Shown here: positions 45,684-62,545 of the stretch, in pieces
Layout: each line of letters starts with the position of its first letter
Numbering within the stretch: the stretch's first letter is position 1
NCBI RefSeq assembly: GCF_000426485.1
Contig: NZ_AUFL01000012.1
Span: 1 to 64,000 of the forward strand
Length of the DNA stretch: 64,000 nucleotides
Direction: 5' to 3'
Source: Indolivaga capnocytophagoides DSM 22835
GTDB taxonomy: Bacteria; Bacteroidota; Bacteroidia; Bacteroidales; Dysgonomonadaceae
Notes under the pieces: generated by a model
Seen by the model: only the letters and a program-made list of their open reading frames with translations
Told to the model about the DNA's origin: nothing
Database searches by the model: none
Program-made: the position numbers and the translations under genes

Positions 45684-45709
45684 ACTCATTCTCAATCGTA
45701 CATCAAAAT

Positions 45710-46495
45710 ATGAAAATAATAATCTCTTTGTTATTCTTGATATTATCAACAATAAGTTTTGCTCAAATCGGGATCAATACCGATGAACCCCAGCAATTAG
45801 TACATATCGATGCTTTGCACGATACTCAGGTACACCCTACGCCGGTAAATTATTATGATGATGTAGTGGTTACTTCGTCCGGCAAAATAGGCTTAGGAAC
45901 ATTATCTCCTGATGCCCGTTTACAAATAAATACGGCAGGAACTCCGACTACTCCCGTAATAGGTCTTCGTTTACAAGACGGAAGCGAAGCCAATGGATAT
46001 GGATGGACGTCCGACAACGATGGATACGGACAATGGAAAGTAATATCGCCTGAAGGTTCCAGAAAAGGAATCAGGCAAAACGGGATTACTCTCAATCTAT
46101 TAAGTGTTAAGAATAAATTTATTAATACCAATACATATATAGATCTACCAACAGGCCGATGGTTGCTAAACCTCACTATTCTTTGTCCGGCAACAGTCTT
46201 GCCTATAGGAACAACCTATAAGATACAAATTACTGTTGGTGATGGTGTAACATCTGGGGGAAGCAATCCGACAAATACTTCCGATCTGGAAGGGAATACA
46301 ACTCTTACAGGTGTAGCATGGCCTGCTACACATGCGATGATTAAGAATATTCTGATTATCAATAATACTACTACAGCCACTAAGAGGTATTATCTGTTAG
46401 CCGGAAAAACGGATTCGACCCTCAATATTAATATTCAGAAGTTTGGAGGAGGCTGGGGTGAAGATGTCATTACGGCTTTCCAACTTCAGGATTAA
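45710..46495 (+). CDS. Secreted GINT-motif protein, paralogue 3
   Basis: This 261-aa protein has a signal peptide ending SFAQ, then IGINTDEPQQLVHIDALHDTQ, DDVVVTSSGKIGLGTLSPDARLQI and a C-terminal domain with NTYIDLPTGRWLLNLTI. It is the third member of the tandem. Its Thr/Asn-rich C-terminal half differs most from the others. A strong bidirectional terminator follows. Confidence 0.8.
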   Translation: MKIIISLLFLILSTISFAQIGINTDEPQQLVHIDALHDTQVHPTPVNYYDDVVVTSSGKIGLGTLSPDARLQINTAGTPTTPVIGLRLQDGSEANGYGWTSDNDGYGQWKVISPEGSRKGIRQNGITLNLLSVKNKFINTNTYIDLPTGRWLLNLTILCPATVLPIGTTYKIQITVGDGVTSGGSNPTNTSDLEGNTTLTGVAWPATHAMIKNILIINNTTTATKRYYLLAGKTDSTLNINIQKFGGGWGEDVITAFQLQD

Positions 46496-46576: not shown

Positions 46577-48313
46577 TTATAACAAATCCCGCCAGTGTTT
46601 TAAGTTGCTTTTAGCTGTATCCCAAACTTCATCAATACGTCCTGCCCAAAGCAACCTTGCCATCGATTTAGCAAAACCTTTCATCTGTACAAATTCTATT
46701 TTAGGAGGCATAGCTAAAGCATTCGGATCGGTTTTGACCGATACCAGCACAGGACCTTCCATGGCAAAAGCCGTCGAGATTGTTTCCTCAACCTTTTCCG
46801 GATCATTAACCGATAGGCTCTTCATACCCATAGCATTTGCGATTGCAGCAAAATCGGGATTATACATATTAGTTTCATGATCAGGCAAACCTGCAACTTC
46901 CATTTCAAGTTTTACCATTCCAAGCGTGCGATTATCAAATACAATCAACTTAATGGGCAGTTTATACTCTACGATTGTAGCCAAATCTCCCATCATCATA
47001 GACAAGCCGCCATCGCCGCACAATGCCACAATCTGTTGATCGGGACGAGCCAAGGCGGCTCCTATCGCCATCGGCATGGCATTCGCCATAGACCCATGAC
47101 TGAACGATCCTAACATTTCGCGTTTTCCGGTTGCATGCAAATACCTTGCCCCCCATACACAACACATTCCGGTGTCAACGGTAAAAATGGTATCATCGTT
47201 TGCCAGATTATCTATAATGGTTGCAACATATTCAGGTGCTATATTATCTATTTTACCCCGTTGATCAGCCATAGCCGCCAGATTCTTCTTCACTTTATCA
47301 TAAAGTTTCATCTGATCACGAAGGAAATCATCTTTTTCTTTCTTCTTAACCAATGGCAGCAAAGCCCGTAAGGTATCCTCTACCGTTCCTGCCAAACCCA
47401 TATTTACTCTGGCTCTTCGTCCTATACGTTCGGGACGCACATCCACTTGTACAATCTTGCAATCATCGGGCATAAACAAAGCATAGGGAAAATCCGTACC
47501 TAAAAGAATCAATAGATCGGTATCATTCATACTCGAAAATGCAGATGGAAGGCCAAGCAAACCAGTCATTCCTACCTCATTCGGGTTATTATATTGTACA
47601 GCCATTTTTCCCCTGAAACTATATCCTACAGGAGCGTTTATAAGTTTCGAAAGCTGAACAACTTCATCATGAGCATCTTTTGCCCCGATACCGCAATACA
47701 GCGTTACTTTCTCAGTACTGTTGATCAACTCTGCCAAAGCTGCTATCTCTGCATCCTGAGGACGGTATACCGATTTGGAGGGTAATACCTGCACCGATGT
47801 ATGAATATCACACGCTTCGGATTCCGCCAAATCGCCGGGAAGCCCCAGTACGGCTACTTCTTTTTTATGAACAGTATGTTGTAAAGCCGCCTGCAACATA
47901 CGGGCAAACTGCATGGGTGTATTTGCAATCTGATTGTAACCGCTGCAGTCGTCAAATAATTTTATAGTATTGGTTTCCTGAAAAAATGAAGATCCGAATT
48001 CTCCCGTAGGACAAGTCGATGCTATAGCCAGCACAGATGCATTAGCTCTTTGAGCATCGTATAATCCATTGATAAGGTGTACGTGTCCTGGACCGCTGCT
48101 TCCGGCACAACAGGCAATACCATTCAGTTCAGCTTCAGCTAAAGCTGCATAGGCTCCTGTCTCTTCGTGACGCACATGTATCCATTTTACATCATCATCT
48201 TTACGAACGGCATCGTTCACTTCATTCAGGCTATCACCTGTTACCGCATAAATATGTCTTATTCCTGCATGTTTAATTGTTTCAATCAATTGTTCTGCTA
48301 CTTTTTTTCCCAT
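46577..48313 (-). CDS. poxB: Pyruvate dehydrogenase (quinone)/pyruvate oxidase, PoxB type
   Basis: This thiamine-diphosphate enzyme oxidatively decarboxylates pyruvate, to acetate and CO2 in the E. coli PoxB case, passing electrons to quinone. From ATG at 48313 (MGKKVAEQLIETI) it has 578 aa, close to PoxB (572). Visible features are the ThDP-activating Glu in RHEETGAYAAL, CAGSSGPGHVHLINGLYDAQR, FQETNTIKLF and the GDG-type metal motif LCGDGGLSMMMGDLATIVEY with its downstream Asn (FDNRTLGM). An in-frame start 102 bases upstream gives an unrelated hydrophobic extension and is rejected. The exact acceptor is not certain. Confidence 0.9.
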   Translation of the reverse strand: MGKKVAEQLIETIKHAGIRHIYAVTGDSLNEVNDAVRKDDDVKWIHVRHEETGAYAALAEAELNGIACCAGSSGPGHVHLINGLYDAQRANASVLAIASTCPTGEFGSSFFQETNTIKLFDDCSGYNQIANTPMQFARMLQAALQHTVHKKEVAVLGLPGDLAESEACDIHTSVQVLPSKSVYRPQDAEIAALAELINSTEKVTLYCGIGAKDAHDEVVQLSKLINAPVGYSFRGKMAVQYNNPNEVGMTGLLGLPSAFSSMNDTDLLILLGTDFPYALFMPDDCKIVQVDVRPERIGRRARVNMGLAGTVEDTLRALLPLVKKKEKDDFLRDQMKLYDKVKKNLAAMADQRGKIDNIAPEYVATIIDNLANDDTIFTVDTGMCCVWGARYLHATGKREMLGSFSHGSMANAMPMAIGAALARPDQQIVALCGDGGLSMMMGDLATIVEYKLPIKLIVFDNRTLGMVKLEMEVAGLPDHETNMYNPDFAAIANAMGMKSLSVNDPEKVEETISTAFAMEGPVLVSVKTDPNALAMPPKIEFVQMKGFAKSMARLLWAGRIDEVWDTAKSNLKHWRDLL

Positions 48314-48504
48314 AATCTTATATCGATAATAATTATATTTCGTTAGTTCAGTGAAGACTGCATTTATAACAATCGTTATGATATTTGAGGGCATCAGCCC
48401 TCTTCTTTTTAACATATTTTAGATCTAAAACATGATAATTATAAAAAAAGAAACAGACCTTGACTTACTCTCTATTTAGATATTCTGTATATCGAAGTAA
48501 TTAT

Positions 48505-48670: not shown

Positions 48671-49225
48671 ATGGCAATAAATTTGACTAAAGGTCAACGC
48701 ATTGAAATCGGTTTATCGAAAGTAGGCGTTGGACTTGGATGGGATCCAAATGAAGGAACAGGGCACGATTTTGACCTTGATGCCTGCGCTTTTATGCTTG
48801 GAGATAATAAGAAACTACCTAAGGACGAATATTTCGTTTTCTACAATAATCCCAAATCACCGGATGAATCTGTTGAATCTTCGGGTGATGACCTGACCGG
48901 AGGAAACAGCGATGGAGATGATGAAACACTTACTGTTGATTTGTCAAGAGTCGACCCTAAAATACAGGAAATTGTATTTACGGTAACTATCCATGACTAT
49001 GAAACACGCCGTCAGAATTTCGGGCAGGTTCGTAATTCATTCATCCGTATTTATAATGCGCAAACCAATGAAGAAATCGCAAAATACGAATTAGATGAAG
49101 ATTTTTCGATCGAAACAGCCGTTGAATTCGGACGTCTTTATAAACGTGGCGGCGAATGGAAATTCGAAGCAATGGGCATAGGATACAAAGGTGGATTACA
49201 ATACTTTGTGGATAAATACGTTTAA
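48671..49225 (+). CDS. terD: TerD family protein 1
   Basis: This 184-aa protein belongs to the TerD/TerE/CABP1 family of calcium-binding stress proteins tied to tellurite, phage and colicin resistance. Diagnostic features are MAINLTKGQRIEI, GLGWDPNEGTGHDFDLDACAF, SSGDDLTGGNSDGDDE (acidic, calcium-binding) and ETAVEFGRLYKRGGEWKFEAMG. It is cytoplasmic. It is the first of three adjacent terD genes in the Ter locus and very close to the second (conserved C-terminal half). Confidence 0.95.
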   Translation: MAINLTKGQRIEIGLSKVGVGLGWDPNEGTGHDFDLDACAFMLGDNKKLPKDEYFVFYNNPKSPDESVESSGDDLTGGNSDGDDETLTVDLSRVDPKIQEIVFTVTIHDYETRRQNFGQVRNSFIRIYNAQTNEEIAKYELDEDFSIETAVEFGRLYKRGGEWKFEAMGIGYKGGLQYFVDKYV

Positions 49226-49286
49226 AGTAAAAAATCATCACTACCAACTCATTACACAATTGTCTCATTAAGAAAATAAAATAATA

Positions 49287-49841
49287 ATGGCTATAAATTT
49301 AGAAAAAGGGCAACGAACTGAGATAAAGCTGCCTAAGTTTACAGTAGGTTTAGGATGGGATACAAACTCATCAAGTACAGGACAGGCTTTTGACCTCGAC
49401 TGCTCGGTTTTTGCTTTAGGTGACAATAGAAAACTTGTTGCCGATGATTTCTTTATATTTTATAATAATCTGAAATCGCCGGATGCAGCAATAGAACATA
49501 CAGGGGATAACCTTACCGGAGATGGAGATGGAGATGATGAATCAATAAAAATTGATTTATCAAAACTCGATTCGAGAGTAAACGAATTATGCTTTGTAGT
49601 GACTATACATGATGCCGAAAACAGAAAACAGAATTTCGGGCAGGTACGCAACTCGTTCGTTCGGATTTATAATCCTGATAATAACGAAGAAATTCTTAAA
49701 TACGAACTTGAAGAAGATTTTTCGATCGAAACCGCAGTCGAATTCGGACGACTTTACAAGCGTAACGGCGAATGGAAATTCGAAGCTGTTGGTGTAGGTC
49801 AAAAAGGCGGATTAGCTGAGTATCTCCAAAAATATAACTAA
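49287..49841 (+). CDS. terD: TerD family protein 2
   Basis: This 184-aa paralogue of the preceding gene has MAINLEKGQRTEI, FDLDCSVFALGDNRK, HTGDNLTGDGDGDDE and QNFGQVRNSFVRIYN identical in layout. The central acidic site GDGDGDDE is the likely calcium site. It sits 61 bases after terD 1 and is presumably co-transcribed and able to hetero-oligomerise with it; that is inference. Confidence 0.95.
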   Translation: MAINLEKGQRTEIKLPKFTVGLGWDTNSSSTGQAFDLDCSVFALGDNRKLVADDFFIFYNNLKSPDAAIEHTGDNLTGDGDGDDESIKIDLSKLDSRVNELCFVVTIHDAENRKQNFGQVRNSFVRIYNPDNNEEILKYELEEDFSIETAVEFGRLYKRNGEWKFEAVGVGQKGGLAEYLQKYN

Positions 49842-49888
49842 AGATTAAAATAAACTACTCATTTCTTAAACATAAAAAATAACCAATC

Positions 49889-50575
49889 ATGGCTATAAAT
49901 TTGCAGAAAGGACAACGCATCAATCTTGAAAAAAGTTCAGGAGCGAAACTCACACAATTTTGTGTAGGTGTAAACTGGGGTGCGATAGAATATCAGGTAG
50001 AAGAAGGAGGATTCCTTGGTTTCGGAAAAAAAACAGTAACCAGAACCAAAGATGTAGATTTGGATCTAAGCTGTGTAATGTATGACGAAAACGGTAACCT
50101 GTGCGATCATCTGTACTCACCGCTGTATCGTCCCGAACTACTTGCTCAATTTGGTCTGAATACAGGTAAATTAGTTTCTCTGACAGGAGCAATGCGCCAC
50201 ACTGGTGATGACCTCGAAGGAGATAAAGGTGGTGATGATGGACTTGATAATGAAATTATCACAGTAGACCTTTCGAAACTGGGAAGTAATATCCATCGTA
50301 TATTTTTCTTTCTGAACAATGTCGGAGAAGAAGACTTTTCTCAGGTTCCATATGCTAAAATCAGAATGTACGAAGGAACTCCCGTTAAGGTAGACAGTGT
50401 ATATGCAGAATATAATGTAGTAGCAGAACCTCAATACAGAGGTAAAAAAGCCCTTATTATGGGAGAATTGTACAAAAAAGGAGACGACTGGAAATTCAAT
50501 GCCATCGGAGATGCCTTTGAAGATGTATTCTTAGGACAAACCATACAGCGTATCTCTCAAAATTATGCCAAATAA
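49889..50575 (+). CDS. TerD family protein 3 (longer variant)
   Basis: This 228-aa TerD-like protein has an insertion after the N-terminus (EEGGFLGFGKKTVTRTKDVDLDLSC) and the acidic site HTGDDLEGDKGGDDGLDNE. The end, GELYKKGDDWKFNAIGDAF, is family-typical. The extended form recalls TerZ/TerX-like members that act beside classical TerD. It ends the first transcription block, followed by a clear terminator. Confidence 0.9.
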   Translation: MAINLQKGQRINLEKSSGAKLTQFCVGVNWGAIEYQVEEGGFLGFGKKTVTRTKDVDLDLSCVMYDENGNLCDHLYSPLYRPELLAQFGLNTGKLVSLTGAMRHTGDDLEGDKGGDDGLDNEIITVDLSKLGSNIHRIFFFLNNVGEEDFSQVPYAKIRMYEGTPVKVDSVYAEYNVVAEPQYRGKKALIMGELYKKGDDWKFNAIGDAFEDVFLGQTIQRISQNYAK

Positions 50576-50598
50576 GGCTTAGTGATATAATTTTTCCT

Positions 50599-50636
50599 AA
50601 TCCTTTTTGCTTATGATATAAAAAGCAAAAAGGATT
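50599..50636 (+). terminator. Terminator after the terD block
   Basis: AATCCTTTTTGCTT and AAGCAAAAAGGATT form a 14-bp stem with a 10-base loop, followed by TTTGT. It separates the terD block from the telA block. Confidence 0.85.
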
Positions 50637-50678
50637 TTGTATTTTTACGAAGAACGCATTGTTCTATAAATCAAAAAC

Positions 50679-50771
50679 AAGGTCACAGACCTATTTATTG
50701 ACTTAGCAAGCATAACAGCAACAGCTAGTTATCGTTTTGAAATATCTCATTAAATATTTTCTATTACTTAT
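50679..50771 (+). repeat. AAGGTCTSAGACCTT element, long form
   Basis: This copy starts AAGGTCACAGACCTATTTATT, continues ACTTAGCAAGCATAACAGC and ends CTCATTAAATATTTTCTATT. It aligns along its length with the copy at 62400-62491. It lies in the gap between the terD block and telA. Confidence 0.65.
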
Positions 50772-50791
50772 ATTATTTAACCAACAGAAAT

Positions 50792-51910
50792 ATGGACATG
50801 AATAGTATGCCCGAAATGGCACCGGTAAACCCAAGCCAGACACCGGCTGTGCAACGTATAGACAGGGATGGCAATGTTGATCTGAGCCATTTAAGTCAAA
50901 ATGAAATAGACAAATTATCGCAGCTCAATCGCAGTCTTGTCGTTACTGACGTCAACTCGGTATTGAATTACGGAGCTGATTTGCAGGCTACAATGGAAAA
51001 GTACAGCAATGACTTCCTCACATCAGTGCGTACATTTAATTCGGGAGAAGTAGGAGCTCATATCAGTGATTTGCTTACCGAACTGAACTATATAGATGTA
51101 GACGAACTGAATCAGAGCGCATTCAAATCATTCCTCAGCAAAATTCCATTGGTTAAAAATCTGGTGGTAAATGTGAAAAGGATATTCCAGAAATACGACA
51201 CCGTTATTTCGAATGTCGATAAGATTTCAAATAAGATAAAAGCCGGACGTATCAACTCGCTCAAAGATAATACCGCCCTGCAAACCATGTTCGACAATAA
51301 TATCGAATACATCAAGCAAATAGAAGAACTCATCATGGCCGGACAGTTGAAAATGCAGGATTTGCAGGTCAAACTGGCCGAGATGGAAGGAGCTCCCGCC
51401 CAGTATAAGGATTACGAGATCAGTGATATGCGGGAATTTATCTCCCGGCTCGACAAACGATTGGCTGATATGAAAATCATCCGATATGTGATGATGCAGT
51501 CTTTGGCTCAAATACGTGTGGTACAGAACAACAATGTGGCAATTGCGGACAAAGCACAGTCTATCATCTCGACAACGATACCTGTATGGAAGAACCAGTT
51601 GACTATCGCTGTAGCTCTTTACAGACAGAAGGCCAACGTCGAAATGCAGCGGAAAGTGGCGGAAACAACAAACACCATTTTGGAAAAGAATGCCGAACTG
51701 CTCAGACAGAACAGCATCGAGGTTGCCCGTGAAAATGAAAATACAGTTGTATCTATCGAAACGTTGAAGAAAACAACTCAATCGCTGATCAGCACTCTCG
51801 ACGAAGTGAAACGTATACATGAAGAAGGTATGCGCAACCGTCAGGTATTAGACAAGGAACTGCAATCACTCGAAACAGAATTAAGAAAAAATGTGACCGG
51901 TATTCGCTAA
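50792..51910 (+). CDS. telA: Toxic anion resistance protein TelA/KlaA family
   Basis: This 372-aa soluble helical protein fits the TelA family (PF05816 type) from residue 55 onward: LNYGADLQATMEKYSNDFL, KIPLVKNLVVNVKRIFQKYDTV and LQDLQVKLAEM-like helices, then ISTTIPVWKNQLTIAVALYRQK. TelA proteins are linked to tellurite and lantibiotic or cell-envelope stress resistance and usually sit in Ter operons. It is followed after six bases by an unrecognised coiled-coil gene, so the two are probably made together. Confidence 0.92.
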   Translation: MDMNSMPEMAPVNPSQTPAVQRIDRDGNVDLSHLSQNEIDKLSQLNRSLVVTDVNSVLNYGADLQATMEKYSNDFLTSVRTFNSGEVGAHISDLLTELNYIDVDELNQSAFKSFLSKIPLVKNLVVNVKRIFQKYDTVISNVDKISNKIKAGRINSLKDNTALQTMFDNNIEYIKQIEELIMAGQLKMQDLQVKLAEMEGAPAQYKDYEISDMREFISRLDKRLADMKIIRYVMMQSLAQIRVVQNNNVAIADKAQSIISTTIPVWKNQLTIAVALYRQKANVEMQRKVAETTNTILEKNAELLRQNSIEVARENENTVVSIETLKKTTQSLISTLDEVKRIHEEGMRNRQVLDKELQSLETELRKNVTGIR

Positions 51911-51916
51911 AGGATA

Positions 51917-52882
51917 ATGGATGACAACAGAGCCGAAATATTAGAGACATCGACCCGCACTATTGAGCAATTATATGATCTGACGGTATTTTTTGAAGAC
52001 CAGACGATCATGAATATATATCTGCAAAATCAGGTTATTCACAAGTTATTTGAGGATAATCCTGATATGGATGTAAACAAACTTGAGCTGTATCACATAC
52101 AGTTTACCATGACATTGGTAGAATTGCTCGAGAAAATAAAGAAGAAAAACGAGCGCATAGTAGGGATGATGAAATCGGAGATCGAACTGAATAACGATAT
52201 GATGCAGAAACTCCGTAAAGCAATTGCCATGGAAGGCAGCTTCGAAGGAGAAAAAGTTCAGCAGGCTTTGAAAGTTTCACGCTCTATCTATAATTTCCAT
52301 AAAATACTGTCATCACAATCTCGTGATTATCCATTTCTTGAAAATACAACGATATTCGGTCTCAAGTTCTACAAAGAATATTTCTTTGAAGTAGATCCTC
52401 AATTACAAGAAGCCTTAATAGGCTATTCGAGTTCGGATGTTTACCGCAATTCTTACGGAGCTATCGGACGCGGGTTGTTAACTATACTTGCAGCGAATTC
52501 ATATGCTATTGATTTCTTCGCAGGAATCCGTATAGGAAATCTGCTTGCTGAAATATACAGGATACGGAATAACGATACGTATTTTATTTTTGTTCCGTCC
52601 AAAAACCTGTTCCTGCAGGTCGAAATGTCCTTATTTACGGATAAAGACGAATGGATTGCCGAATTATCGAAAAAAGAATCGACCATCAAAGACCTGGCAA
52701 TAAAGAATATTGAATTGGAGAAGAATATAAAATCCAATCTGAAGAAAATAGATGATGATATTGCCGACCTGCTGAAAGAAAATCTCAAGAAAGTAACGGA
52801 CATCGATTTTCTTGCCGATCTTGAAAATGTCGATATTCAGGCAAATACATTGAAGGCTATGCTGGAAACTAAGATGATATAA
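51917..52882 (+). CDS. Unrecognised coiled-coil Ter-locus protein
   Basis: This 321-aa soluble protein starts MDDNRAEILETSTRTIEQLYD. It is mostly alpha-helical with Lys/Glu-rich coiled-coil segments at about 75-110 and at the C-terminus (about 245-320). A central globular part contains GAIGRGLLTILAANSYAIDFFAGIRIGNLL. I match it to no family. Its position, six bases after telA and 38 bases before the first VWA gene, argues that it works with TelA, for instance as a stable partner or adaptor. It has no transmembrane segment and no catalytic motif I can see. Confidence 0.75.
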   Translation: MDDNRAEILETSTRTIEQLYDLTVFFEDQTIMNIYLQNQVIHKLFEDNPDMDVNKLELYHIQFTMTLVELLEKIKKKNERIVGMMKSEIELNNDMMQKLRKAIAMEGSFEGEKVQQALKVSRSIYNFHKILSSQSRDYPFLENTTIFGLKFYKEYFFEVDPQLQEALIGYSSSDVYRNSYGAIGRGLLTILAANSYAIDFFAGIRIGNLLAEIYRIRNNDTYFIFVPSKNLFLQVEMSLFTDKDEWIAELSKKESTIKDLAIKNIELEKNIKSNLKKIDDDIADLLKENLKKVTDIDFLADLENVDIQANTLKAMLETKMI

Positions 52883-52919
52883 AACATCAGACAAAAAGCA
52901 ACATAACAAACAACAAAAT

Positions 52920-53558
52920 ATGAGAAAACTACCTGTATATTTAATTCTTGACACCTCAGGGTCAATGCATGGAGAACCTATCGAAGCCGTTAAAAACGGA
53001 GTGCAAGTATTGGTTTCAACTCTACGGCAGGATCCCTATGCACTCGAAACTGCATTCCTGAGCATCATTACATTCGATGACAGGGCACAGCAAATAACAC
53101 CTCTTACCGAATTGTCGATGTTTCAGATGCCGACCATCTCGGCTAACGGAACAACCTGCCTGGGAGGAGCTTTATCTTTGCTGGCAGAGCGTATAGATGC
53201 AGAAGTACATAAAAGCACAGCCGAGAAAAAAGGAGATTGGCGTCCGCTCGTTTTCATTATGACAGACGGAGCACCGACTGACAATTGGGAAAGAGGACTC
53301 GAAGATTTTAGAAAAACCAAATGTGCCATGGTAGTGGCTTGTGCAGCAGGACAAAACGCCCAGACCAAAATATTGAAGAAAATTACCGACACAGTAGTAT
53401 CGCTCGACACTGCCGATAGTACAACCATTAAGGCATTTTTCAAATGGGTATCGGCATCTATCAGTTTCGGCAGCCAGAAGGTAGAATCGTCTCATCAGGA
53501 AATATCCGGACTGAACGAACTTCCGCCGCCTCCACCCGAAGTGAATATTGTTCTCTGA
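52920..53558 (+). CDS. VWA domain protein 1 (TerY-like)
   Basis: This 212-aa protein is one von Willebrand A domain with a complete MIDAS: DTSGS (Asp11, Ser13, Ser15), the Thr in NGTTCLGGAL, and Asp in IMTDGAPTD. It matches TerY of Ter operons. The C-terminus is a short proline tail, LPPPPPEVNIVL, nearly repeated in the next protein. It is cytoplasmic and would bind a metal ion and a partner protein. Third gene of the telA block. Confidence 0.92.
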   Translation: MRKLPVYLILDTSGSMHGEPIEAVKNGVQVLVSTLRQDPYALETAFLSIITFDDRAQQITPLTELSMFQMPTISANGTTCLGGALSLLAERIDAEVHKSTAEKKGDWRPLVFIMTDGAPTDNWERGLEDFRKTKCAMVVACAAGQNAQTKILKKITDTVVSLDTADSTTIKAFFKWVSASISFGSQKVESSHQEISGLNELPPPPPEVNIVL

Positions 53559-53623
53559 TGAGAAAACTAAAATAGAAATAGAATCAGTATATTACTGATT
53601 AACAAATAAAAAAACATTTAATA

Positions 53624-54259
53624 ATGAGACGTTTACCCGTATATTTATTATTAGACACATCCGGATCAATGAGAGGAGAGCCTATCGAGTCGGTCAAGGT
53701 TGGATTGGAGTCGATGGTTGCTAGTCTCAGACAAGACCCGTTTGCTCTCGAATCGGTATATATGAGCATCATTACTTTCGATAGAGAGGTAAAGCAATTA
53801 CTGCCTCTTACAGCTTTGGAACATCTACAGATACCGCCCATAGTTACCCCCGAATCGGGTCCGACACATCTGGGAGCAGCTCTCGAAATGCTTTGCCAGA
53901 AAGTGAACTCAGAGGTAAAGTTAAGCTCTGCCGAAGAAAAAGGCGACTGGATGCCATTACTCTTTATCATGACAGACGGAAAACCATCCGATTTACAAAA
54001 ATACAATCAGATGATACCCGAAGTACGCAAGCGAAACTTCGCAGGAGTGATTGCTTGTGCTGCAGGCGTTAAAGCTGACACGCAGCCATTGCTGGCATTA
54101 ACCAATCAGGTATATTCGCTCGATACGACAGATAGTTCTACTTTCCGTCAGTTTTTCAAATGGGTATCGGCATCGGTCAGTGTGGGTAACCGCAGTATCG
54201 GTGTCAACAGCGATATAGCATTGCCGCCTCCACCACCCGAAATCCATACAGTTATCTGA
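53624..54259 (+). CDS. VWA domain protein 2 (TerY-like)
   Basis: This 211-aa TerY-like protein is highly similar to the previous one: RRLPVYLLLDTSGSMRGEPIES, the Thr in SGPTHLGAAL, and IMTDGKPSD for the MIDAS. It also ends in a proline tail, LPPPPPEIHTVI. It is an apparent tandem duplicate, separated by 65 bases. The shared tail suggests a common docking partner such as the kinase or phosphatase zinc ribbon; that is inference. Confidence 0.92.
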   Translation: MRRLPVYLLLDTSGSMRGEPIESVKVGLESMVASLRQDPFALESVYMSIITFDREVKQLLPLTALEHLQIPPIVTPESGPTHLGAALEMLCQKVNSEVKLSSAEEKGDWMPLLFIMTDGKPSDLQKYNQMIPEVRKRNFAGVIACAAGVKADTQPLLALTNQVYSLDTTDSSTFRQFFKWVSASVSVGNRSIGVNSDIALPPPPPEIHTVI

Positions 54260-54296
54260 TAAGCTGTTTCATCATTGTATAAAAAGGGATAAACCA

Positions 54297-55361
54297 ATGA
54301 GACGACTACCTATTTATTTTCTGATAGATGTATCCGAATCGATGATCGGAGAACCTCTTACTCACGTACAGAATGGAGTTGAAACTATCATTCGAGAGCT
54401 TCGGACAGATCCTTATGCCCTCGAAACCGTATATTTATCTATTATAGCCTTTGCTGGAAAGGCAAAGAAATTATGCTCAATGCAGGAGTTATCGAACTTC
54501 TACCCTCCCCGATTACCTATTGGCGGGGGAACGTCTTTAGGGAATGCGCTTCTCTTTCTGATGAATGATATGGATGCTGCCATACAAAGGACAACAACCG
54601 AAACAAAAGGAGATTGGAAACCTATTGTTTTTCTCTTTACAGACGGAGCACCCACAGATGATACCAAAGCTGCATTTGAAAGATGGAACAGTAAATACCG
54701 CAGTAAAGCCAATCTTATAGCCATTGCTATGGGAGACAATATGGATACATCGGTTCTCAAAGAGATAACCGAAAATGTACTGCAATTGAAGGATACGGAC
54801 GAAGTATCGTTCAAAGCCTTTTTCAAATGGGTAACTGCGTCCATTAAAACCACCAGCGTAAGTGTAAGCAGCTTAAACAGTGATGACCTGAAACTGGCTC
54901 CGCTTACAGACGATTTCCTTACCAAGATAGAGAAGGAAATGAATATACCTATAAAAGTAGATGAAAATTTTGCCGTTATTCTGGGAAAATGCCAGAATAC
55001 AAAACAACCTTATCTGCTTAAATATCAAAAGAGAATCGACAGAAATGATTTTTCGCACATGACCTCAGCAGGAGGACGGCACTTTAAATTTGTCGGTGGT
55101 TATCCTATTGACAATTCTTACTTCGAAATGGTAGATGGATATGGAGACGGAAACCTCAGCGGAAAACGTATCAATACGAGTGAACTAATCGGATTTCCTT
55201 CGTGTCCCTGTTGTGCCAATCAAGTAGCTATAGGGCTTTGTATGTGTGGCAATATTATGTGCGTAGGACATGAGCAGAACAGCATCTGCCCGTGGTGTGG
55301 TATGCAGCTGTCGTTCCGTGAATCGGGAGGAGGAATGGATATCGGACGCACCAGAGGATAA
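54297..55361 (+). CDS. VWA domain protein 3 with C-terminal zinc ribbon (TerY-C)
   Basis: This 354-aa protein starts with a VWA domain (1-200) whose MIDAS reads DVSES, a Thr in GGGTSLGNAL and FTDGAPTD. A middle domain (about 205-295) resembles the TerY-C extension. The C-terminus holds a cysteine-rich ribbon, FPSCPCCANQVAIGLCMCG then CPWC, which would bind zinc. It lacks the proline tail of VWA 1 and 2. It is 36 bases before the PP2C gene. TerY proteins with such ribbons are the receptor partners of the phosphatase and kinase in Ter loci. Confidence 0.9.
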   Translation: MRRLPIYFLIDVSESMIGEPLTHVQNGVETIIRELRTDPYALETVYLSIIAFAGKAKKLCSMQELSNFYPPRLPIGGGTSLGNALLFLMNDMDAAIQRTTTETKGDWKPIVFLFTDGAPTDDTKAAFERWNSKYRSKANLIAIAMGDNMDTSVLKEITENVLQLKDTDEVSFKAFFKWVTASIKTTSVSVSSLNSDDLKLAPLTDDFLTKIEKEMNIPIKVDENFAVILGKCQNTKQPYLLKYQKRIDRNDFSHMTSAGGRHFKFVGGYPIDNSYFEMVDGYGDGNLSGKRINTSELIGFPSCPCCANQVAIGLCMCGNIMCVGHEQNSICPWCGMQLSFRESGGGMDIGRTRG

Positions 55362-55397
55362 AGCGTACCTTTTTATAAAAGAGATAACCAGTAAGTT

Positions 55398-56915
55398 ATG
55401 GATTTTGACAAAATATTACCCTACTTCGAAAACTCATCTGAGAATGAAGAATTACTGCGTCAATTCTTCGATTCGGAAGAAATTAAGAACTTCCTTTCTG
55501 AGAAATGGGATGAATTTCGGAAGGATGATGCACCTGCACCCGAAATACCGAGTATAAACCCCGAAACACCTATTGATGATATGCCTTTTATACCCCTCAT
55601 ACCCGATGACGAGGAAACTAAAGCTCGTTATCAACCGTCTTTCCAAGAAGAGAAATACGAGACTATCAACCGTCAGTTGCAAAATGTACATATACAATTC
55701 AATAATGGTAAAGTAAATCAGCCATACCAGATGTTATTCGATTTTACGGAATTGAACATTCCCGGTATAGAGCAATTCGAATTTGTAGGACTGGAGGAAA
55801 CCGGACTGAGATTCAATACTTCAACCGATATGATAGAGGGTACACCTTCGGTATCGGGAGACTTCAAAATTAGATTATCTTGTTACCCTGTAGGCTGGCA
55901 GGAAGGAGAACCTGTTTTCGAGAAAAAGATTACACTGATTATCAATCCCGATCCCCGTGCTTTGTGGAACAATATCCCGACACCGGAAGATATTACCTAT
56001 TATAAGCCTGACTCGGACTGCGAATATGTGACAGTGAAAAAGTCGAAAGGCTTTCTTGGTATAAGCAGTCACGAAAAAAAAGACATTGTTGCTGCCAGCC
56101 AGCGAGGTCGCTCTCATGCTCACGAAGGAAAAGCAAGGGACGATGATTTCAGTATACTACACAACGAAGAGTCAGATTGGTATGTTACTGTTGTTGCGGA
56201 TGGAGCAGGCTCTGCCCAATTTTCCCGAAAAGGATCGGAGATAGCATGCACTACAGTATCGGACATTAGCAATATACATCTGGCAAAATACAATAAAGAA
56301 ATAGACGAACTTGTTAAAGATTTTCAGAAAGAGAATTCGGAGATCAAACGAAAAAAGCTGGGAGACGCACTTTACAACATACTAGGTGCAGCCGTTTTCA
56401 AAGCATATAAAAATATCGAGCAAGAAGCTGTAGAGAATAACAATCAGATAAAAGATTATGCTACTACCCTATTGGCTGCTGTTGCTAAGAAATATAAATT
56501 CGGATGGTTCGTTGCAACTTTCTGGGTGGGAGACGGAGGTATTGCCCTGTATAATAAAGAAACAGGATTCGTAAAAGTAATGGGAGACCCCGATGGAGGA
56601 GACTTTGCAGGACAGACACGATTTCTTACGATGGGAGAAGTGATGCAGCCTGCCGAAATATACAAACGGCTGCGATTCGAAATTATCGAAGATTTTACCG
56701 CACTCGTTTTAATGACAGACGGTGTAACCGATCCCAAATTCGAAACTGATGCTAATTTGCAAAGAATTGAGAAATGGAACAATTTGTGGGAAGATATCAC
56801 ATCTTCCGTAGAATTGACCGATGACAACGAAAATGCGGCACCTCAATTATTGAAGTGGCTCGATTTCTGGTCTCCCGGCAATCATGACGATCGTACCATA
56901 GCTATTATTTATTAG
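55398..56915 (+). CDS. PP2C-type Ser/Thr phosphatase with Ig-like region
   Basis: This 505-aa protein has three parts. The acidic N-terminus (1-85, rich in Asp, Glu, Pro) may be flexible. Residues about 90-180 read like a putative Ig (He_PIG) domain: GLEETGLRFNTSTDMIEGTP followed by SVSGDFKIRLSC. The C-terminal half is a PP2C phosphatase with metal-binding motifs RDDDFSI, VVADGAGSA, LMTDGVTD and HDDRTIAI. It should remove phosphates placed by the partner kinase. It directly follows the zinc-ribbon VWA gene. The Ig assignment is by eye. Confidence 0.9.
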   Translation: MDFDKILPYFENSSENEELLRQFFDSEEIKNFLSEKWDEFRKDDAPAPEIPSINPETPIDDMPFIPLIPDDEETKARYQPSFQEEKYETINRQLQNVHIQFNNGKVNQPYQMLFDFTELNIPGIEQFEFVGLEETGLRFNTSTDMIEGTPSVSGDFKIRLSCYPVGWQEGEPVFEKKITLIINPDPRALWNNIPTPEDITYYKPDSDCEYVTVKKSKGFLGISSHEKKDIVAASQRGRSHAHEGKARDDDFSILHNEESDWYVTVVADGAGSAQFSRKGSEIACTTVSDISNIHLAKYNKEIDELVKDFQKENSEIKRKKLGDALYNILGAAVFKAYKNIEQEAVENNNQIKDYATTLLAAVAKKYKFGWFVATFWVGDGGIALYNKETGFVKVMGDPDGGDFAGQTRFLTMGEVMQPAEIYKRLRFEIIEDFTALVLMTDGVTDPKFETDANLQRIEKWNNLWEDITSSVELTDDNENAAPQLLKWLDFWSPGNHDDRTIAIIY

Positions 56916-56961
56916 ACACAACAAAACAACTCGCTGTTACTTATTTTATCTATAGAGATAA

Positions 56962-56989
56962 GATCAGTTAACAGTGATCAGTTAACAGT
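56962..56989 (+). repeat. Tandem 14-base repeat
   Basis: GATCAGTTAACAGT occurs twice back to back after the phosphatase gene, 15 bases before the first 42-base direct repeat. Confidence 0.8.
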
Positions 56990-57004
56990 GAAAAAAGTGA
57001 CATC

Positions 57005-57047
57005 AAAAAGTGTACATAAAAGCTGTTACTTTTGTAACTTTTTTTAA
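57005..57047 (+). repeat. Direct repeat R1 flanking the insert
   Basis: AAAAAGTGTACATAAAAGC followed by TGTTACTTTTGTAACTTTTT. It contains the small palindrome GTTAC-TTTT-GTAAC and a -7-like TACTTTTG (57027-57034). R2 at 57594 differs by about two bases. Confidence 0.75.
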
Positions 57048-57593
57048 TAATTAGTAATAATGTCAATGAGTAGCTGGATTGATAAAAACGTTATTTTATA
57101 CTCTCAGGTTTAGCTATTTACTAACGCAGCCTCCCGGCTTTGTTTTTCATTTTGGCTTGATGCAAAACGAAACAAAAGATCAAGACTGCGTCTCCAACCC
57201 GACCCGCTGAGCTCTCGAAAGCTAAGACAAATAAACATGATTATCGCTGATATCTATCTGTCTTTTAACGCTTTCTTCGTGCAGCGGGTACCCCGGGCTT
57301 CCGCCGAGGTCGAAAACCTGACGGACGAGGAGGCTTGCGCCGGCGAAATCGTGCGTCAGCCGGGGTGCATACAGAGGTGAAGCCGTAATCTGACCAGTGA
57401 AACGGGCGTTTAAACTAAATGCTGTCTGAGCTCGCAGAGCGAGTTTTATTTAGTTTCGCCCATGAACGTTGTCAGATAGGCAGAGCCTCGAAGCGCCAAA
57501 GACCTTTTGGTTCCTTTTGGGGCTTTGGCCAAAAGGAATACAAGCAATCTTTGATTGCGCGTAGAAGTTACAAGAGAGAAAAAGTTACAGATG
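57048..57593. mobile_element. GC-rich insert between direct repeats (possible mobile element)
   Basis: This 546-base segment differs from its surroundings: its core (57270-57390) is very GC-rich in an AT-rich region. It contains structured sequence, including AAACTAAAT...ATTTAGTTT arms around GCTCGCAGAGCGAG near 57412-57458, and a short 47-codon frame (57237-57380) of doubtful meaning. It has no transposase. It sits between two 42-base direct repeats. It may be a non-autonomous mobile element or an RNA element. Confidence 0.45.
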
Positions 57594-57636
57594 AAAAGTG
57601 TACATAAAAGCTGTTACCTTTGTAACCTTTTTTTAA
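57594..57636 (+). repeat. Direct repeat R2 with promoter-like core
   Basis: AAAAGTGTACATAAAAGCTG followed by TTACCTTTGTAACC and a T run matches R1. TACCTTTG (57615-57622) could be the -7 box for the kinase gene about 107 bases downstream. Confidence 0.75.
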
Positions 57637-57728
57637 CAATGATCGATAAACAATAAGGAGTTCTCAATTGATAACTGTTGACTGACAAAAACTAAAATGC
57701 AAAAAAGCAATATATTTATCAAGATATA

Positions 57729-59228
57729 ATGAGCAATAAAACAATTACACTGAAAGCAAGCGACGGCTCTACAGTCGAATTTGTTGACGAAATTATCGGT
57801 TCGGGTGGAATGAAAGATGTTTATTTCAGCCCGGATAAATCATATGTAGTGGGATTTTTTCGAGATAAGCAGGATTTCAACGCTAAAGACCGACTGCAAA
57901 CCATCACCGGAATTTATCGAGAACGGATTTTTTCCCAGCAAGGCGGAGATTATTGGAAAGACCTTTTTTGCTGGCCTACCAAAATGGTTGAATATAAAGG
58001 TAAACTGGGATTAGTCTGCCCTACTTATCAACCCGATTTCTTCTTTAAATACGGATCTGTCAATAATGACTTTCTGGGAATCAAAGGAAAAGAAAAAGAG
58101 GGTAAATGGTTTGCTTCCGCCAAAAATCAAAATCGTTTCCTTGCTGCCGAAGAACGAGGAGACTGGTTTAAATACATCCAGATATGTATCCGTATAAGCC
58201 GTGCCGTAAAACGAATGCACGCCGCAGGGCTGGCTCACTCCGACCTTTCCTACAAAAATGTACTGATAGACCCTACCTCCGGACGTGCAGCCATTATAGA
58301 TATAGATGGTCTGGTCGTTCCCGGAAAGTTTGCGCCTGATGTACTCGGAACTCCGGATTTCATTGCTCCGGAAGTAATCATGACTAAGCACCTCAAAATG
58401 GACGATCCAAATCGTAAGCTGCCCAATATACTGACCGACAGACACGCTTTGGCTGTAATGATCTATATGTACCTGCTGTATAGGCACCCTTTGAGAGGAG
58501 GAAAAGTAAACGCAATGGAAGCTGGTAAAGACGAAGAACTGTCGATGGGTGAAAAAGCCTTGTTTATAGAACATCCAACCGATACATCAAATAGAGTAAA
58601 AGTATCTCAACTACAACCTAGTCAATTGCCGCAGGCTGATCCTGCGAAAATACCTTATACTGTTTGTGGACCTTACTTAAAGGAATTATTTGATAGAGCT
58701 TTTATAGATGGATTACATAACCCGAACTTACGCCCAACCGCTAACGAATGGGAAGACGCCTTACTGAAAACTGTCGATCTGGTTCAGCCCTGCCAAAATC
58801 CGAAATGCTGGCACAAATGGTTCGTTTTCGATAATACAACCAGGCCCCGATGCCCGTTCTGCGAAACAGATTACAAAGGACAATTACCCGTCTTAAATTT
58901 ATATTCGCCCCGTCATCAGGGAACATTTACGCCCGATAATTATCGCCTGATGGTTTATAATAACCAATATCTTTACCCTTGGCATGTCAATCGCCATATC
59001 TGGCCGAACGAACGGCTGTCGGATGAAGACAAAAAGCCTGTCGGATACTTTGTATTTCATCAAAATAAATGGCTTCTTGTCAACCAACGGCTGACAGATC
59101 TTGAGGATAAAACCGAAGGTAAGAAAATAGGCATAAATGAAGCTGTCGAATTAACCGATAACAAGCAAATACTTTTGTCTAAAGAAGACGATGGCAGGCT
59201 GGTTGTCGTACAGATTGTAAACAATTAA
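57729..59228 (+). CDS. Atypical Ser/Thr kinase with C-terminal zinc ribbon (Ter locus)
   Basis: This 499-aa protein has an N-terminal kinase domain with glycine loop IGSGGMKDVY (23-32), catalytic loop HSDLSYKNVL (Asp172, Asn177), a DID motif (191-193) where DFG is expected, and an APE equivalent (FIAPEV). The usual VAIK lysine is not obvious: the strand reads SYVVGFFR. After about 355 comes a zinc ribbon (CQNPKCWHKWF, then CPFC) and a beta-rich C-terminal domain ending LVVVQIVNN. It is the kinase of the VWA-phosphatase-kinase set. The insert upstream separates it from the phosphatase gene. Confidence 0.88.
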   Translation: MSNKTITLKASDGSTVEFVDEIIGSGGMKDVYFSPDKSYVVGFFRDKQDFNAKDRLQTITGIYRERIFSQQGGDYWKDLFCWPTKMVEYKGKLGLVCPTYQPDFFFKYGSVNNDFLGIKGKEKEGKWFASAKNQNRFLAAEERGDWFKYIQICIRISRAVKRMHAAGLAHSDLSYKNVLIDPTSGRAAIIDIDGLVVPGKFAPDVLGTPDFIAPEVIMTKHLKMDDPNRKLPNILTDRHALAVMIYMYLLYRHPLRGGKVNAMEAGKDEELSMGEKALFIEHPTDTSNRVKVSQLQPSQLPQADPAKIPYTVCGPYLKELFDRAFIDGLHNPNLRPTANEWEDALLKTVDLVQPCQNPKCWHKWFVFDNTTRPRCPFCETDYKGQLPVLNLYSPRHQGTFTPDNYRLMVYNNQYLYPWHVNRHIWPNERLSDEDKKPVGYFVFHQNKWLLVNQRLTDLEDKTEGKKIGINEAVELTDNKQILLSKEDDGRLVVVQIVNN

Positions 59229-59384: not shown

Positions 59385-60209
59385 ATGAAAAAGATATTTC
59401 TACTACTTATACTTATTTTAACAATGACCACCAATAGCGCACATTCGCAGGAAAAGGATTCTCTCGTTTTGATAACAACGGAATTCGGTAATATAAAGCT
59501 GAAACTATATGATGATACTCCTTTGCATAAGGAAAACTTCAAAAAACTGATTACTGAAGGTTTTTATAAAGATTTGCTCTTTCATCGTGTTATCAAGAAT
59601 TTTATGATACAAGGCGGTGACCCTAATTCACGTAATGCTTCAGATACAACAGCATTGGGCAGCGGAGATCTGGGATATACAATTCCTGCCGAAATAAAAT
59701 TTCCTAAACATTTCAACAAAAGAGGAGCTTTGGCCGCTGCCCGCACAGGAAATGACAGCAACCCCGAAAAAGAATCATCAGCCAGCCAGTTCTATATAGT
59801 TACAGGTAAAACTTATTCGGAAAAAGAACTGAACAAAATTGAAACAGAGCGTGTAGAACGTCAGGTTCAAGCACTTTACAATAATCTTCAGGCAGACAAC
59901 AAAGCTAAGATTAAAGAGTTTTACAGCAGCGGAGACAGAGACGGATTAGCGGCTTTCCGGCAAGGATTGTACGCCCAGTCTCAGGAAACAGCAAAAACGG
60001 ATTCAACACTGGTATTCTCTCCGGAACAACGCCTTGCTTATACCAAAGAAGGTGGAGCCATGCATCTTGATGGGGAATATACTGTCTTTGGAGAAGTAGT
60101 TGAAGGTATGGATGTTATAGAAAAGATTCAGCAAGCCAAAACTGACAAAAAGGATCGTCCGATAAAGGATATTAAGATGGATATTACTTTGATCCCTGCC
60201 AATAATTAA
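59385..60209 (+). CDS. Periplasmic peptidyl-prolyl isomerase, cyclophilin type
   Basis: This 274-aa enzyme has a signal peptide (about 1-21, ending SAHSQ) and therefore acts outside the cytoplasm, catalysing proline cis-trans isomerisation. The cyclophilin core is split: FHRVIKNFMIQGGDPNSRN and GALAAARTGNDSNPEKESSASQFYIVTGK in the first half, then an 80-residue helical insert (about 145-220), then MHLDGEYTVFGEVVEGMDVIEKI. Such inserts are usual in Bacteroidota cyclophilins. It stands alone between two terminator-like sequences. Confidence 0.93.
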   Translation: MKKIFLLLILILTMTTNSAHSQEKDSLVLITTEFGNIKLKLYDDTPLHKENFKKLITEGFYKDLLFHRVIKNFMIQGGDPNSRNASDTTALGSGDLGYTIPAEIKFPKHFNKRGALAAARTGNDSNPEKESSASQFYIVTGKTYSEKELNKIETERVERQVQALYNNLQADNKAKIKEFYSSGDRDGLAAFRQGLYAQSQETAKTDSTLVFSPEQRLAYTKEGGAMHLDGEYTVFGEVVEGMDVIEKIQQAKTDKKDRPIKDIKMDITLIPANN

Positions 60210-60275
60210 AACGAGTTAATTATCAGCATATAATTCAGATAAGAAAGAGACAAACATAAAACTCTCAATATAGTT

Positions 60276-60301
60276 ATCCCCTATATACATTTATAGGGGA
60301 T
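60276..60301 (+). terminator. Terminator after the cyclophilin gene
   Basis: ATCCCCTATA and TATAGGGGAT enclose TACATT, followed by ATTTATTGT. Confidence 0.75.
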
Positions 60302-60349
60302 ATTTATTGTCTATCTACAATTTTGATAAGTTCATATTACAAAATTACA

Positions 60350-60357
60350 TATCTTTG
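60350..60357 (+). promoter_or_regulatory. -7 box upstream of the flavoprotein gene
   Basis: TATCTTTG lies 30 bases before the ATG at 60388. A TTTTG sits about 24 bases further upstream (60321-60325), slightly longer than the usual spacing. Confidence 0.5.
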
Positions 60358-60387
60358 TAAACTTGAACAAGAATTATCAACACATCA

Positions 60388-61746
60388 ATGGAAGTGAATC
60401 AGGATCAACAAAAAGGAACATTAGCTGCACTAGCCGAATTACACGTCGGTTATACAATGAAAGAAGCAATAGATGAAGCAAAACGCTGCCTCAATTGCAA
60501 GAATCCTCTCTGCGTTCAGGGATGTCCCATCGATCATAAAATACCGGAATGGATACATCAGCTATCTAAAGGAAACATAGGCGGTGCAATGGAGTTACTG
60601 AACGAGAAAAGTAACCTGCCTGCTATTTGCGGACGTGTCTGTCCTCACGAGAAACAATGCGAAGGACACTGCATCCTCAACAAAAAGGGTAACCCTGTAC
60701 GAGTAGGAAAACTCGAACGTTTTATTGCCGACTTCGACAGTGAAATGGGGCTAACGAAAGAGCGACTGAAGCCAAAAACCAGAGGTAAAGTTGCAGTGAT
60801 AGGTTCGGGACCTGCCGGACTGACTGTTGCCGGAGACCTTGCTCGGGATGGCTTTAATGTGACTGTTTTCGAAAGCCAGAAAGAACCGGGAGGTGTACTA
60901 CTGTACGGCATACCTGAGTATCGCCTGCCAAATGAAATTACACGTCGTGAAGTTAAAAAGATAGAAGCTCTGGGCGTTACATTCCGTAATAGCTGTATTG
61001 TAGGCGAAAGTATCACTGTAGATGCCATGTTCAGCGATGAAGATTTCGATGCTGTCTTTATAGGCTCAGGAACAGCTCTGCCGCAATCACTTAAAATAAC
61101 AGGCGACAACTTATACGGTGTTGCTCAATCTGCTTATTTCCTGCGGATGGTCAGTTTATTCGCCAGTGATGATATTCCCAGAACCGATGTACCCCTTAAG
61201 GCAAAAGAGAAGGTAGCTGTAATCGGAGCGGGAAATGTAGCCATGGACACTGCACGTACAGCCTTACGGATGGGGGCAGAAAGTGTAACTCTCATATATC
61301 GCCGGAAAGAAGAAGATATGCCTGCCCTAAGATCCGAGTTTCTGGAAGCTCAGAAAGAAGGTGTACAATTCCTGTGGGAAGCTAATACTCAGGAACTGAT
61401 AGGCGAAGAGGTTAACGGTAAACAAAAACTGGTCAGAATGCGTATTGCAACTCCCGATGGAGAAATAACCATTCCTATGGACAGGGTATATATGGCTGTC
61501 GGCTCTAAGCCTGCTAACCGTATTGTATCTACATCATTGGGAATAGAAGTTAATGACAAAGGCTATATCACAACATCCGAACACCCTTACGGCATGACTA
61601 CCAGAAGGGGAGTTTTTGCAGGTGGAGATGTCGTGCATACCCCTCAAACTGTAGTGCTTGCCATGCGGGAAGCCAAGAAAGTGGCTGTCGGTATTGCACA
61701 GTATGTTGATGCCATGAAACTATTAGGTGTGAAAAATTATGACTGA
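60388..61746 (+). CDS. Glutamate synthase small-subunit-like NAD(P)H oxidoreductase
   Basis: This 452-aa flavoprotein resembles the GltD/sulfide dehydrogenase (SudA/NfnB) group. An N-terminal iron-sulfur region has Cys34, 37, 42, 46 (CLNCKNPLCVQGC) and Cys81, 85, 91, 95 (CGRVCPHEKQCEGHC). FAD (GSGPAG, 139-144) and NAD(P) (GAGNVA, about 283-288) dinucleotide folds follow. GltD normally pairs with GltB, and SudA with SudB; neither is adjacent, so the physiological partner is open. It overlaps the next gene by eight bases. Confidence 0.85.
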   Translation: MEVNQDQQKGTLAALAELHVGYTMKEAIDEAKRCLNCKNPLCVQGCPIDHKIPEWIHQLSKGNIGGAMELLNEKSNLPAICGRVCPHEKQCEGHCILNKKGNPVRVGKLERFIADFDSEMGLTKERLKPKTRGKVAVIGSGPAGLTVAGDLARDGFNVTVFESQKEPGGVLLYGIPEYRLPNEITRREVKKIEALGVTFRNSCIVGESITVDAMFSDEDFDAVFIGSGTALPQSLKITGDNLYGVAQSAYFLRMVSLFASDDIPRTDVPLKAKEKVAVIGAGNVAMDTARTALRMGAESVTLIYRRKEEDMPALRSEFLEAQKEGVQFLWEANTQELIGEEVNGKQKLVRMRIATPDGEITIPMDRVYMAVGSKPANRIVSTSLGIEVNDKGYITTSEHPYGMTTRRGVFAGGDVVHTPQTVVLAMREAKKVAVGIAQYVDAMKLLGVKNYD

Positions 61747-62401
61747 AAACAACAAAACCGCAATATTGTTGGGAGCCTCCGGATTAGTCGGAGGCTTTCT
61801 GCTCGATATGCTTCTCGACTGCGGAACATACAATCATGTACTGATCTTTGTGCGTAAACCTCTGGGTAAAGAACATCCTATACTTACCGAATATGTTATT
61901 GACTTTGACGATCCTCAAAGTTACAAAGACTTGGTAAAAGGAGATGACCTCTTTTGCTGCTTAGGTACAACCATAAAGAAAGCAGGTTCTCAGGCAGCCT
62001 TTCGTAAAGTAGATTATGAATACCCTATCACTTTCGCAGAGATAGCCAAAGAGAACGGAATAAAGCAGTACCTGATAATTACCGCTATTGGTGCAAATGC
62101 TCAATCTTCGGTGTTCTATACCAGAACCAAAGGCGAGTGCGAAAACTCAATCAAGGCATTGGGTTTACCATCGGTAAAGATATTCCGTCCGTCACTACTC
62201 ACTGGCAACAGGAAAGAGTTTAGGTTAGGTGAAAAGCTATCGACTTATGTCATGAAGGCTTTCTCATTCTTCATGACTGGCAAATGGAAGAAATATCGTC
62301 CTGTAGAATGCCGGCAGGTAGCCAAAGCTATGTTATGCTCGGCAAATCAAGAGTCAGCGGGAGTTTCGATATTCGAATCCGATCAGATACAAGCCTTTTA
62401 A
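61739..62401 (+). CDS. NAD(P)-binding SDR-like protein (HTATIP2/YwnB-like)
   Basis: This 220-aa protein has an N-terminal Rossmann loop GASGLVGG (12-19) and an SDR-like core: DLFCCLGTTIKKAGSQAAFRKVDYEYP. The rest resembles atypical short-chain dehydrogenases of the HTATIP2/oxidoreductase type (YLIITAIGANAQSSVFYTRTKGECENSIKALGLPSVKIFRPSLLTG). The ATG at 61739 overlaps the preceding stop by eight bases, so translation is coupled. Substrate unknown. Confidence 0.87.
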   Translation: MTENNKTAILLGASGLVGGFLLDMLLDCGTYNHVLIFVRKPLGKEHPILTEYVIDFDDPQSYKDLVKGDDLFCCLGTTIKKAGSQAAFRKVDYEYPITFAEIAKENGIKQYLIITAIGANAQSSVFYTRTKGECENSIKALGLPSVKIFRPSLLTGNRKEFRLGEKLSTYVMKAFSFFMTGKWKKYRPVECRQVAKAMLCSANQESAGVSIFESDQIQAF

Positions 62402-62491
62402 GGTCACAGACCTTTTTATTTACTTTGCAAGTATAAAAAGAACAGCCTATTATTACTTAAAAACACATCATTAAATACTTTCTATTCCTTA
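62400..62491 (+). repeat. AAGGTCTSAGACCTT element, long form
   Basis: AAGGTCACAGACCTTTTTATT overlaps the previous stop codon, followed by TTTGCAAGTATAAAAAGAAC and ending ACATCATTAAATACTTTCT. It matches the copy at 50679 nearly end to end. hisS lies immediately downstream. Confidence 0.65.
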
Positions 62492-62507
62492 CTTAGCACA
62501 ATTTACT

Positions 62508-62515: not shown

Positions 62516-62545
62516 TACTTGCTAAAAATTAAGAATAATAATACG

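Follow-up and report, generated by a model that had tools for sequence, protein, structure and literature searches.

The DNA analysed here, the window, is a stretch of 64,000 nucleotides from Indolivaga capnocytophagoides DSM 22835 (assembly GCF_000426485.1, contig NZ_AUFL01000012.1, positions 1 to 64,000), a genome counted below with the genus Dysgonomonas. Ten intact open reading frames (ORFs) at 48671-59228, all on the plus strand, encode three TerD proteins, TelA, an unclassified helical or coiled-coil protein (CC), three VWA proteins, a PP2C phosphatase and a kinase, and we consider it probable that this locus represents, in a form of the Bacteroidota, the Ter / TerY-phosphorylation system of stress response and defence, vertically inherited in Dysgonomonas. 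The locus unites two known modules that other members of the phylum carry separately, namely TelA-CC-HAD-PRTase and VWA-VWA-TerY-PP2C-kinase, and it lacks both TerB and an Alx-type TerC; gene content, order, conservation, co-occurrence and this absence were all computed here. As such, its novelty is limited: the locus is a known Ter set without the usual membrane protein and not a wholly new system, with CC as the one unclassified part. No description of this gene arrangement was found in the literature searched, although one in Anantharaman 2012 is possible.

Two TerD genes (48671-49225 and 49287-49841; Pfam TerD 2.6e-73 and 7.9e-72) are followed by a third, divergent one (49889-50575; 1.4e-28), by telA (50792-51910; Pfam TelA 6.6e-95) and by the gene for CC (51917-52882), a protein of 321 residues with no assigned family whose ORF starts 6 nt past TelA. 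Then come VWA1, with a conserved proline-rich C-terminal tail, and VWA2, with a similar tail (52920-53558 and 53624-54259; Pfam VWA 7.5e-11 and 6.2e-12), a TerY-like VWA protein with a TerY_C metal-binding domain (54297-55361; Pfam VWA 9.2e-12, TerY_C 2.5e-41), the PP2C phosphatase (55398-56915; Pfam PP2C_2 6.3e-39) and, beyond a tract of dispersed-repeat DNA (56916-57728), an atypical Ser/Thr kinase with a C-terminal Cys-rich, zinc-ribbon-like segment (57729-59228; Pfam Pkinase 5e-10). The residues DxSxS ... T ... TDG, which we take to be the metal ion-dependent adhesion site (MIDAS), are readable in each of the three VWA proteins. An earlier sequence-only reading had listed these same genes on one strand, with intact MIDAS motifs, and had assigned them to a Ter / TerY-phosphorylation locus, all of which is borne out by the ORFs, the Pfam families and the residues themselves. 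Intergenic gaps measure 6 to 65 bp, except for 216 bp between the third TerD gene and telA and 813 bp between PP2C and kinase. Such a ten-gene run is far beyond chance, and its order is also kept in four other Dysgonomonas genomes. By a simple hydropathy scan, the highest mean value over 19 residues in any of the ten proteins is 1.57; with no strongly hydrophobic stretch of that length, all ten look soluble, and the locus is most likely a soluble, phosphorylation-tuned Ter system, as predicted from the proteins' sequences.

A standard TerB or TerC elsewhere in the genome, which would speak for an ordinary dispersed Ter system, was not found, and the claim of the sequence-only reading that the locus is without both therefore stands. 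TerB gave no match in the whole draft genome (98.65% complete) or in D. macrotermitis (G301), with G296, G298 and G300 outside this search, and among eight other CC-carrying genomes there were partial, weak matches in two, one of them over the cut-off and none near ter genes. The sole TerC-family gene of the genome (C2:365727; Pfam TerC 5.6e-46) is unlinked to the locus, and the TerC-family model likewise gave one unlinked match per genome in 5/5 Dysgonomonas tested. Against the TerC/Alx model (cut-off 246.4 bits) these five proteins, four of which were scored over their Pfam-matched part only, reach at most 20.6 bits, whereas the TerC proteins from the ter clusters of L014, L079 and L080 exceed the cut-off with 348 to 360 bits. 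The five resemble the YkoY and YjbE models, yet fall below those cut-offs, and no ter gene is found among the neighbours of the TerC-family gene in L042. Because all five Dysgonomonas have a single, unlinked, non-Alx TerC relative, the missing Alx-type TerC is not an assembly gap but, judged by these model scores, characterises the genus as far as its genomes were tested.

The VWA-VWA-TerY-PP2C-kinase half is an already known module, since a TerY protein search matched 2,276 of 72,556 plasmid records, with at least 80% of TerY covered in 2,238 of them, and the two plasmid ter loci read, on Aromatoleum aromaticum plasmid 1 and E. coli plasmid CP099135, both show the order VWA, TerD, VWA, TerY_C, PP2C, kinase. 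There, too, the genes lie on one strand with TerD and PRTase-type genes close by, but an extra TerD gene stands between the two VWA genes, Alx-type TerC, TerB, ATP-grasp, StiP and HpcH/HpaI genes are present, and TelA and CC are not annotated in the two stretches. The kinase is 60-65% identical to its plasmid counterparts over the aligned length, VWA1 59-69% (the 69% being to the E. coli plasmid VWA protein), VWA2 56-58% (to the VWA-b proteins), TerY 45% (to the TerY_C proteins) and PP2C 35-37%, and the small VWA proteins retain their proline-rich end with small changes. The metal-binding aspartates of the phosphatase (DGAG, (M)(T/S)DG and DDRT) are kept in 7/7 aligned proteins; its N-terminal piece, the look of which we take to be immunoglobulin-like, matched no Pfam family. 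In the kinase, the HxDxxxxN and DxDG motifs are invariant in nine homologues, as are C355, C360, C375 and C378 (9/9), which form a zinc-ribbon-like, putative zinc site, and the protein is 92% identical to its D. macrotermitis homologue; its AlphaFold2 model is poor, with a predicted local distance difference test score (pLDDT) of 54. Given that catalytic residues of both phosphatase and kinase are conserved, a phosphorylation switch seems plausible.

TerY, PP2C and kinase also resemble the TerY-P triad, which, according to PMC11090510, combines a TerY-like VWA protein, a PP2C phosphatase and a Ser/Thr kinase with a zinc-ribbon-like segment fused at its C-terminus, and is hypothesised to be a metal-sensing phosphorylation switch. 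All of these features are present here, namely a VWA protein with TerY_C, a PP2C with its aspartates and a kinase with the C-terminal Cys segment; in contrast to the triad as described there, this locus has three VWA proteins, and the partners are TerD, TelA, CC, HAD and PRTase and not the CoCoNuT nuclease system. From the Ter system of the TerZABCDEF type, three TerD proteins over the Pfam cut-off, PRTase and HAD are present, while TerB and an Alx-type TerC (0/5 Dysgonomonas near the cut-off) were not found. PMC7824862 describes jumbo phage Ter operons that share TerD, TelA, PRTase and HAD with this locus. Neither the phage collection nor viral contigs, however, yielded CC; PRTase matches 154 of 50,697 phage records. 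In the sole phage record read, Xanthomonas phage XaC1 (L119 5276-6759), a HAD-like gene is directly followed by a PRTase_3-like one.

CC itself matched no family in Pfam, NCBIfam or PHROGs, but it lies directly 3' of TelA in 12/12 CC loci aligned, and of 296 genomes sampled from the phylum 8 carry it, exactly those with both TerD and TelA; no match was obtained in the five TerD-only genomes or in G002, which has a full-scoring TelA only. This survey was a single-sequence search, which a distant CC could escape. CC is 86% identical to its D. macrotermitis homologue, and a single-sequence scan of genome contigs matched in that species only. Its AlphaFold2 model has a mean pLDDT of 81 and a predicted template modelling score of 0.51, and Foldseek with this model returned no match at E 0.001 in PDB (0/170 listed at E 10) or BFVD (0/324). 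The best hit of a PDB sequence profile, at E 0.023, was taken as chance, and in profile comparisons with TerB, TelA and plasmid neighbours the probabilities were 0.8, 0.3, 0.1 and 0.1 per cent, so that kinship with any of them was rejected. The CC homologue of G017 (L016), used as query in place of the window's own protein, found no match among phages or plasmids, and a CC profile scan of viral contigs gave 44 candidate stretches, none of them confirmed. We also weighed a bolder proposal for Dysgonomonas, a Ter response without its own membrane protein in which CC would be a hub that connects TelA with TerD and with the phosphorylation module and replaces the TerB-TerC unit, and hold it to be rather improbable; as profile comparison shows no CC-TerB homology, CC would then take over no more than the unit's role.

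The genome search placed five other genomes in the same genus, and with the present one included CC is found in 5/6, with PRTase in the same five; the sixth member (G299) is 62% complete, has neither gene and was dropped from the counts. In G296, G297, G298 and G300 the order is TerD, TerD, TerD, TelA, CC, VWA1, VWA2, TerY, PP2C, kinase, HAD, PRTase, with an extra VWA gene after CC in three of them, and an oxidase-like gene (46577-48415 in the window) also lies upstream in all four; the flanks common to these loci argue for vertical inheritance. Across the 296 genomes, TerD is present in 13 and TelA in 13 at E 0.001, nine of them over the family cut-off; the four TelA genomes below it (G174, G245, G160 and G192, none with TerD) were left out. 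TerY_C occurs in 6/296, all of which also have TelA, CC and TerD. Counted by genus, 4/5 TelA genera among 140 have CC (3e-7) and 3/5 have TerY_C (2e-5); on these still small values a chance association was rejected, but genera are not independent and the sample is one of 296 genomes.

That the two modules are separable is seen in G012 and G017, which carry HAD, PRTase, TerD, TelA, CC, TerD, TerC without TerY_C, in G277, G210 and G265, where both modules are present but unlinked, and in G284, where VWA, PP2C and kinase genes occur with neither TelA nor CC. The TelA-CC-HAD-PRTase module usually comes with an Alx-type TerC, and TerD genes accompany both modules. Besides the five Dysgonomonas, the joined order is found in two genomes of other families. 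The Flavobacteriia-like genomes G021 and G170 (L014, L015) have the single run TerD, HAD, PRTase, TerD, TerD, TelA, CC, TerD, TerD, VWA1, VWA2, TerY, PP2C, kinase, but their HAD and PRTase lie upstream and not downstream, and their clusters end with the Alx-type TerC that is absent in Dysgonomonas. The assertion of the sequence-only reading that TerB and TerC normally accompany such sets is true of the two plasmid loci and only in part of the Bacteroidota relatives, which have TerC in the cluster but no TerB match nearby (eight genomes). Separately, L113 holds at 8448-15854 four TerD genes, VWA1, VWA2, PP2C and kinase, with no TerY_C, TelA or CC in the stretch, and genes for P-type cation ATPases (Pfam) lie near TerD genes in two genomes with TerD and without TelA (L111 4439-7357 and L113 16050-18923).

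In the four other Dysgonomonas with the locus, HAD and PRTase come after the kinase, whereas here the pair (HAD_2 1.8e-13, PRTase_3 2.9e-81, Pfam) lies about 7 kb off on the minus strand of the same contig, at about 66108-67611, past the end of the window. The coordinates 48671-59228 therefore leave out two genes that belonged to the ancestral run. G297 has the order kinase, HAD, PRTase, four small genes, then on the opposite strand HisS, NAD-binding, GltD-like and PPIase, then a YidB-like gene; G300 matches it except that four more ORFs separate HisS from the NAD-binding gene. In the present genome, kinase and YidB-like gene enclose this PPIase-to-HAD block in exactly the opposite orientation, so that a single inversion separated kinase from HAD. 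It spans L038 700-9997 (contig 9, about 59.2-68.5 kb) and is clean relative to other Dysgonomonas; its in-window part, with PPIase, GltD-like, NAD-binding and HisS genes, reads on the plus strand at 59385-63907. A hairpin AGGTCT..AGACCT lies near both breakpoints, but since two more copies occur within the same 20 kb it may be just a terminator. Between PP2C and kinase, 813 bp here compare with 0 to 45 bp in the four other Dysgonomonas, and the repeat DNA of this gap, most of it flanked by two 40-nt direct repeats (57006 and 57594), has 48 matches in this draft genome including itself, several at contig ends. The description of the locus as reduced, given by the sequence-only reading, is accurate in that TerB and ter-type TerC were not found, but it fails in the sense of a stripped system, because HAD and PRTase persist a few kb away after the inversion.

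Apart from TerB and TerC, the locus agrees with the published picture of Ter systems. According to PMC7824862, PRTase and HAD produce a nucleotide-like signal that TerB and TerD may sense, with TerC as the membrane part and TelA beneath the membrane; PMC12054061 reports a Klebsiella terC mutant with altered resistance to tellurite, zinc, manganese and phage and cites studies in which TerC-TerD is the minimal unit. For the present locus we infer every biochemical step. Stress or phage attack would be sensed first, upon which PRTase and HAD would produce a nucleotide-like signal and the TerD proteins would respond to it. TerD proteins are calcium- and ligand-binding. The zinc-ribbon kinase and PP2C might then set the phosphorylation state of a VWA/TerY scaffold, and TelA with CC could be the assembly that acts, at the membrane or just beneath it. 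The system would thereby work without a membrane protein of its own, via the unlinked YkoY/YjbE-like TerC relative or via none.

Several observations weigh against the locus being such a phosphorylation-tuned Ter system. TerB and Alx-type TerC, the core according to the literature, were not found. At the likely beta-3 lysine place, presumably the ATP-binding one, the kinase has Arg in 9/9 aligned proteins and the E. coli plasmid homologue (L080) has His, and because this lysine is not invariant, kinase activity is not certain. PADLOC gave weak general kinase matches only and, at E 0.01, matched neither VWA nor PP2C, the presence of TerY-P models in its library being unchecked. G284 carries TerD, VWA, VWA, PP2C and kinase alone, without TelA, CC or TerY_C, and G002 has TelA without TerD or CC. 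In addition, repeat and inversion break the run, which may thus no longer be one transcription unit, and a Bacteroidota-type promoter pattern occurs 6 times in the window against 3.4 by chance, with none at 48-60 kb. Operon proof by promoters was rejected, as the excess in the sigma-70 scan (46 against a shuffle mean of 29.2) and in the terminator scan (15 against 8.0) is no evidence of function.

A standard Ter system that is merely dispersed, with the unlinked TerC-family gene as membrane part and only TerB missing, would fit the single such gene here and in each of the four other Dysgonomonas tested; we regard this as unlikely in view of the wide gap in Alx-model scores (at most 20.6 bits against 348-360) and of the TerC-family gene's neighbours in L042, which include no ter gene. 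The absence of TerC might also be the start of decay: after its loss in the genus, repeat insertion and inversion would now be costing this species the remaining genes. Both events are specific to this genome, and Y1-type (IS200-like) transposase genes stand in line inside the ter run of three relatives (L005 10963-11511, L039 9424-9960 and L041 12316-12864), but the ten ORFs, HAD and PRTase are intact and full length, and the close identity of kinase (92%) and CC (86%) to D. macrotermitis makes decay quite unlikely. Very unlikely, finally, is a set of two or more unrelated operons merely side by side: the gaps of 216 and 813 bp and the separation of the modules in several genomes would allow it, yet all six TerY_C genomes also carry TelA, CC and TerD, even though the modules are unlinked in three, and the joined order is common to five Dysgonomonas and two genomes of other families.

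Ter systems are common on resistance plasmids, but their mode of action is still unclear. Whether a membrane complex centred on TerC forms their core is put to the test by a natural version without TerB and ter-type TerC, and the separability of the TelA-CC-HAD-PRTase and VWA-PP2C-kinase modules indicates which genes to delete jointly. In addition, the CC family represents a new and specific candidate TelA partner for pull-down.

Upstream of the locus, at 44130-46495 of the window, lie three tandem genes for similar, secreted-looking proteins with a signal-like start and a QVGIN/QIGIN motif, and similar ORFs are found upstream of the locus in L005.

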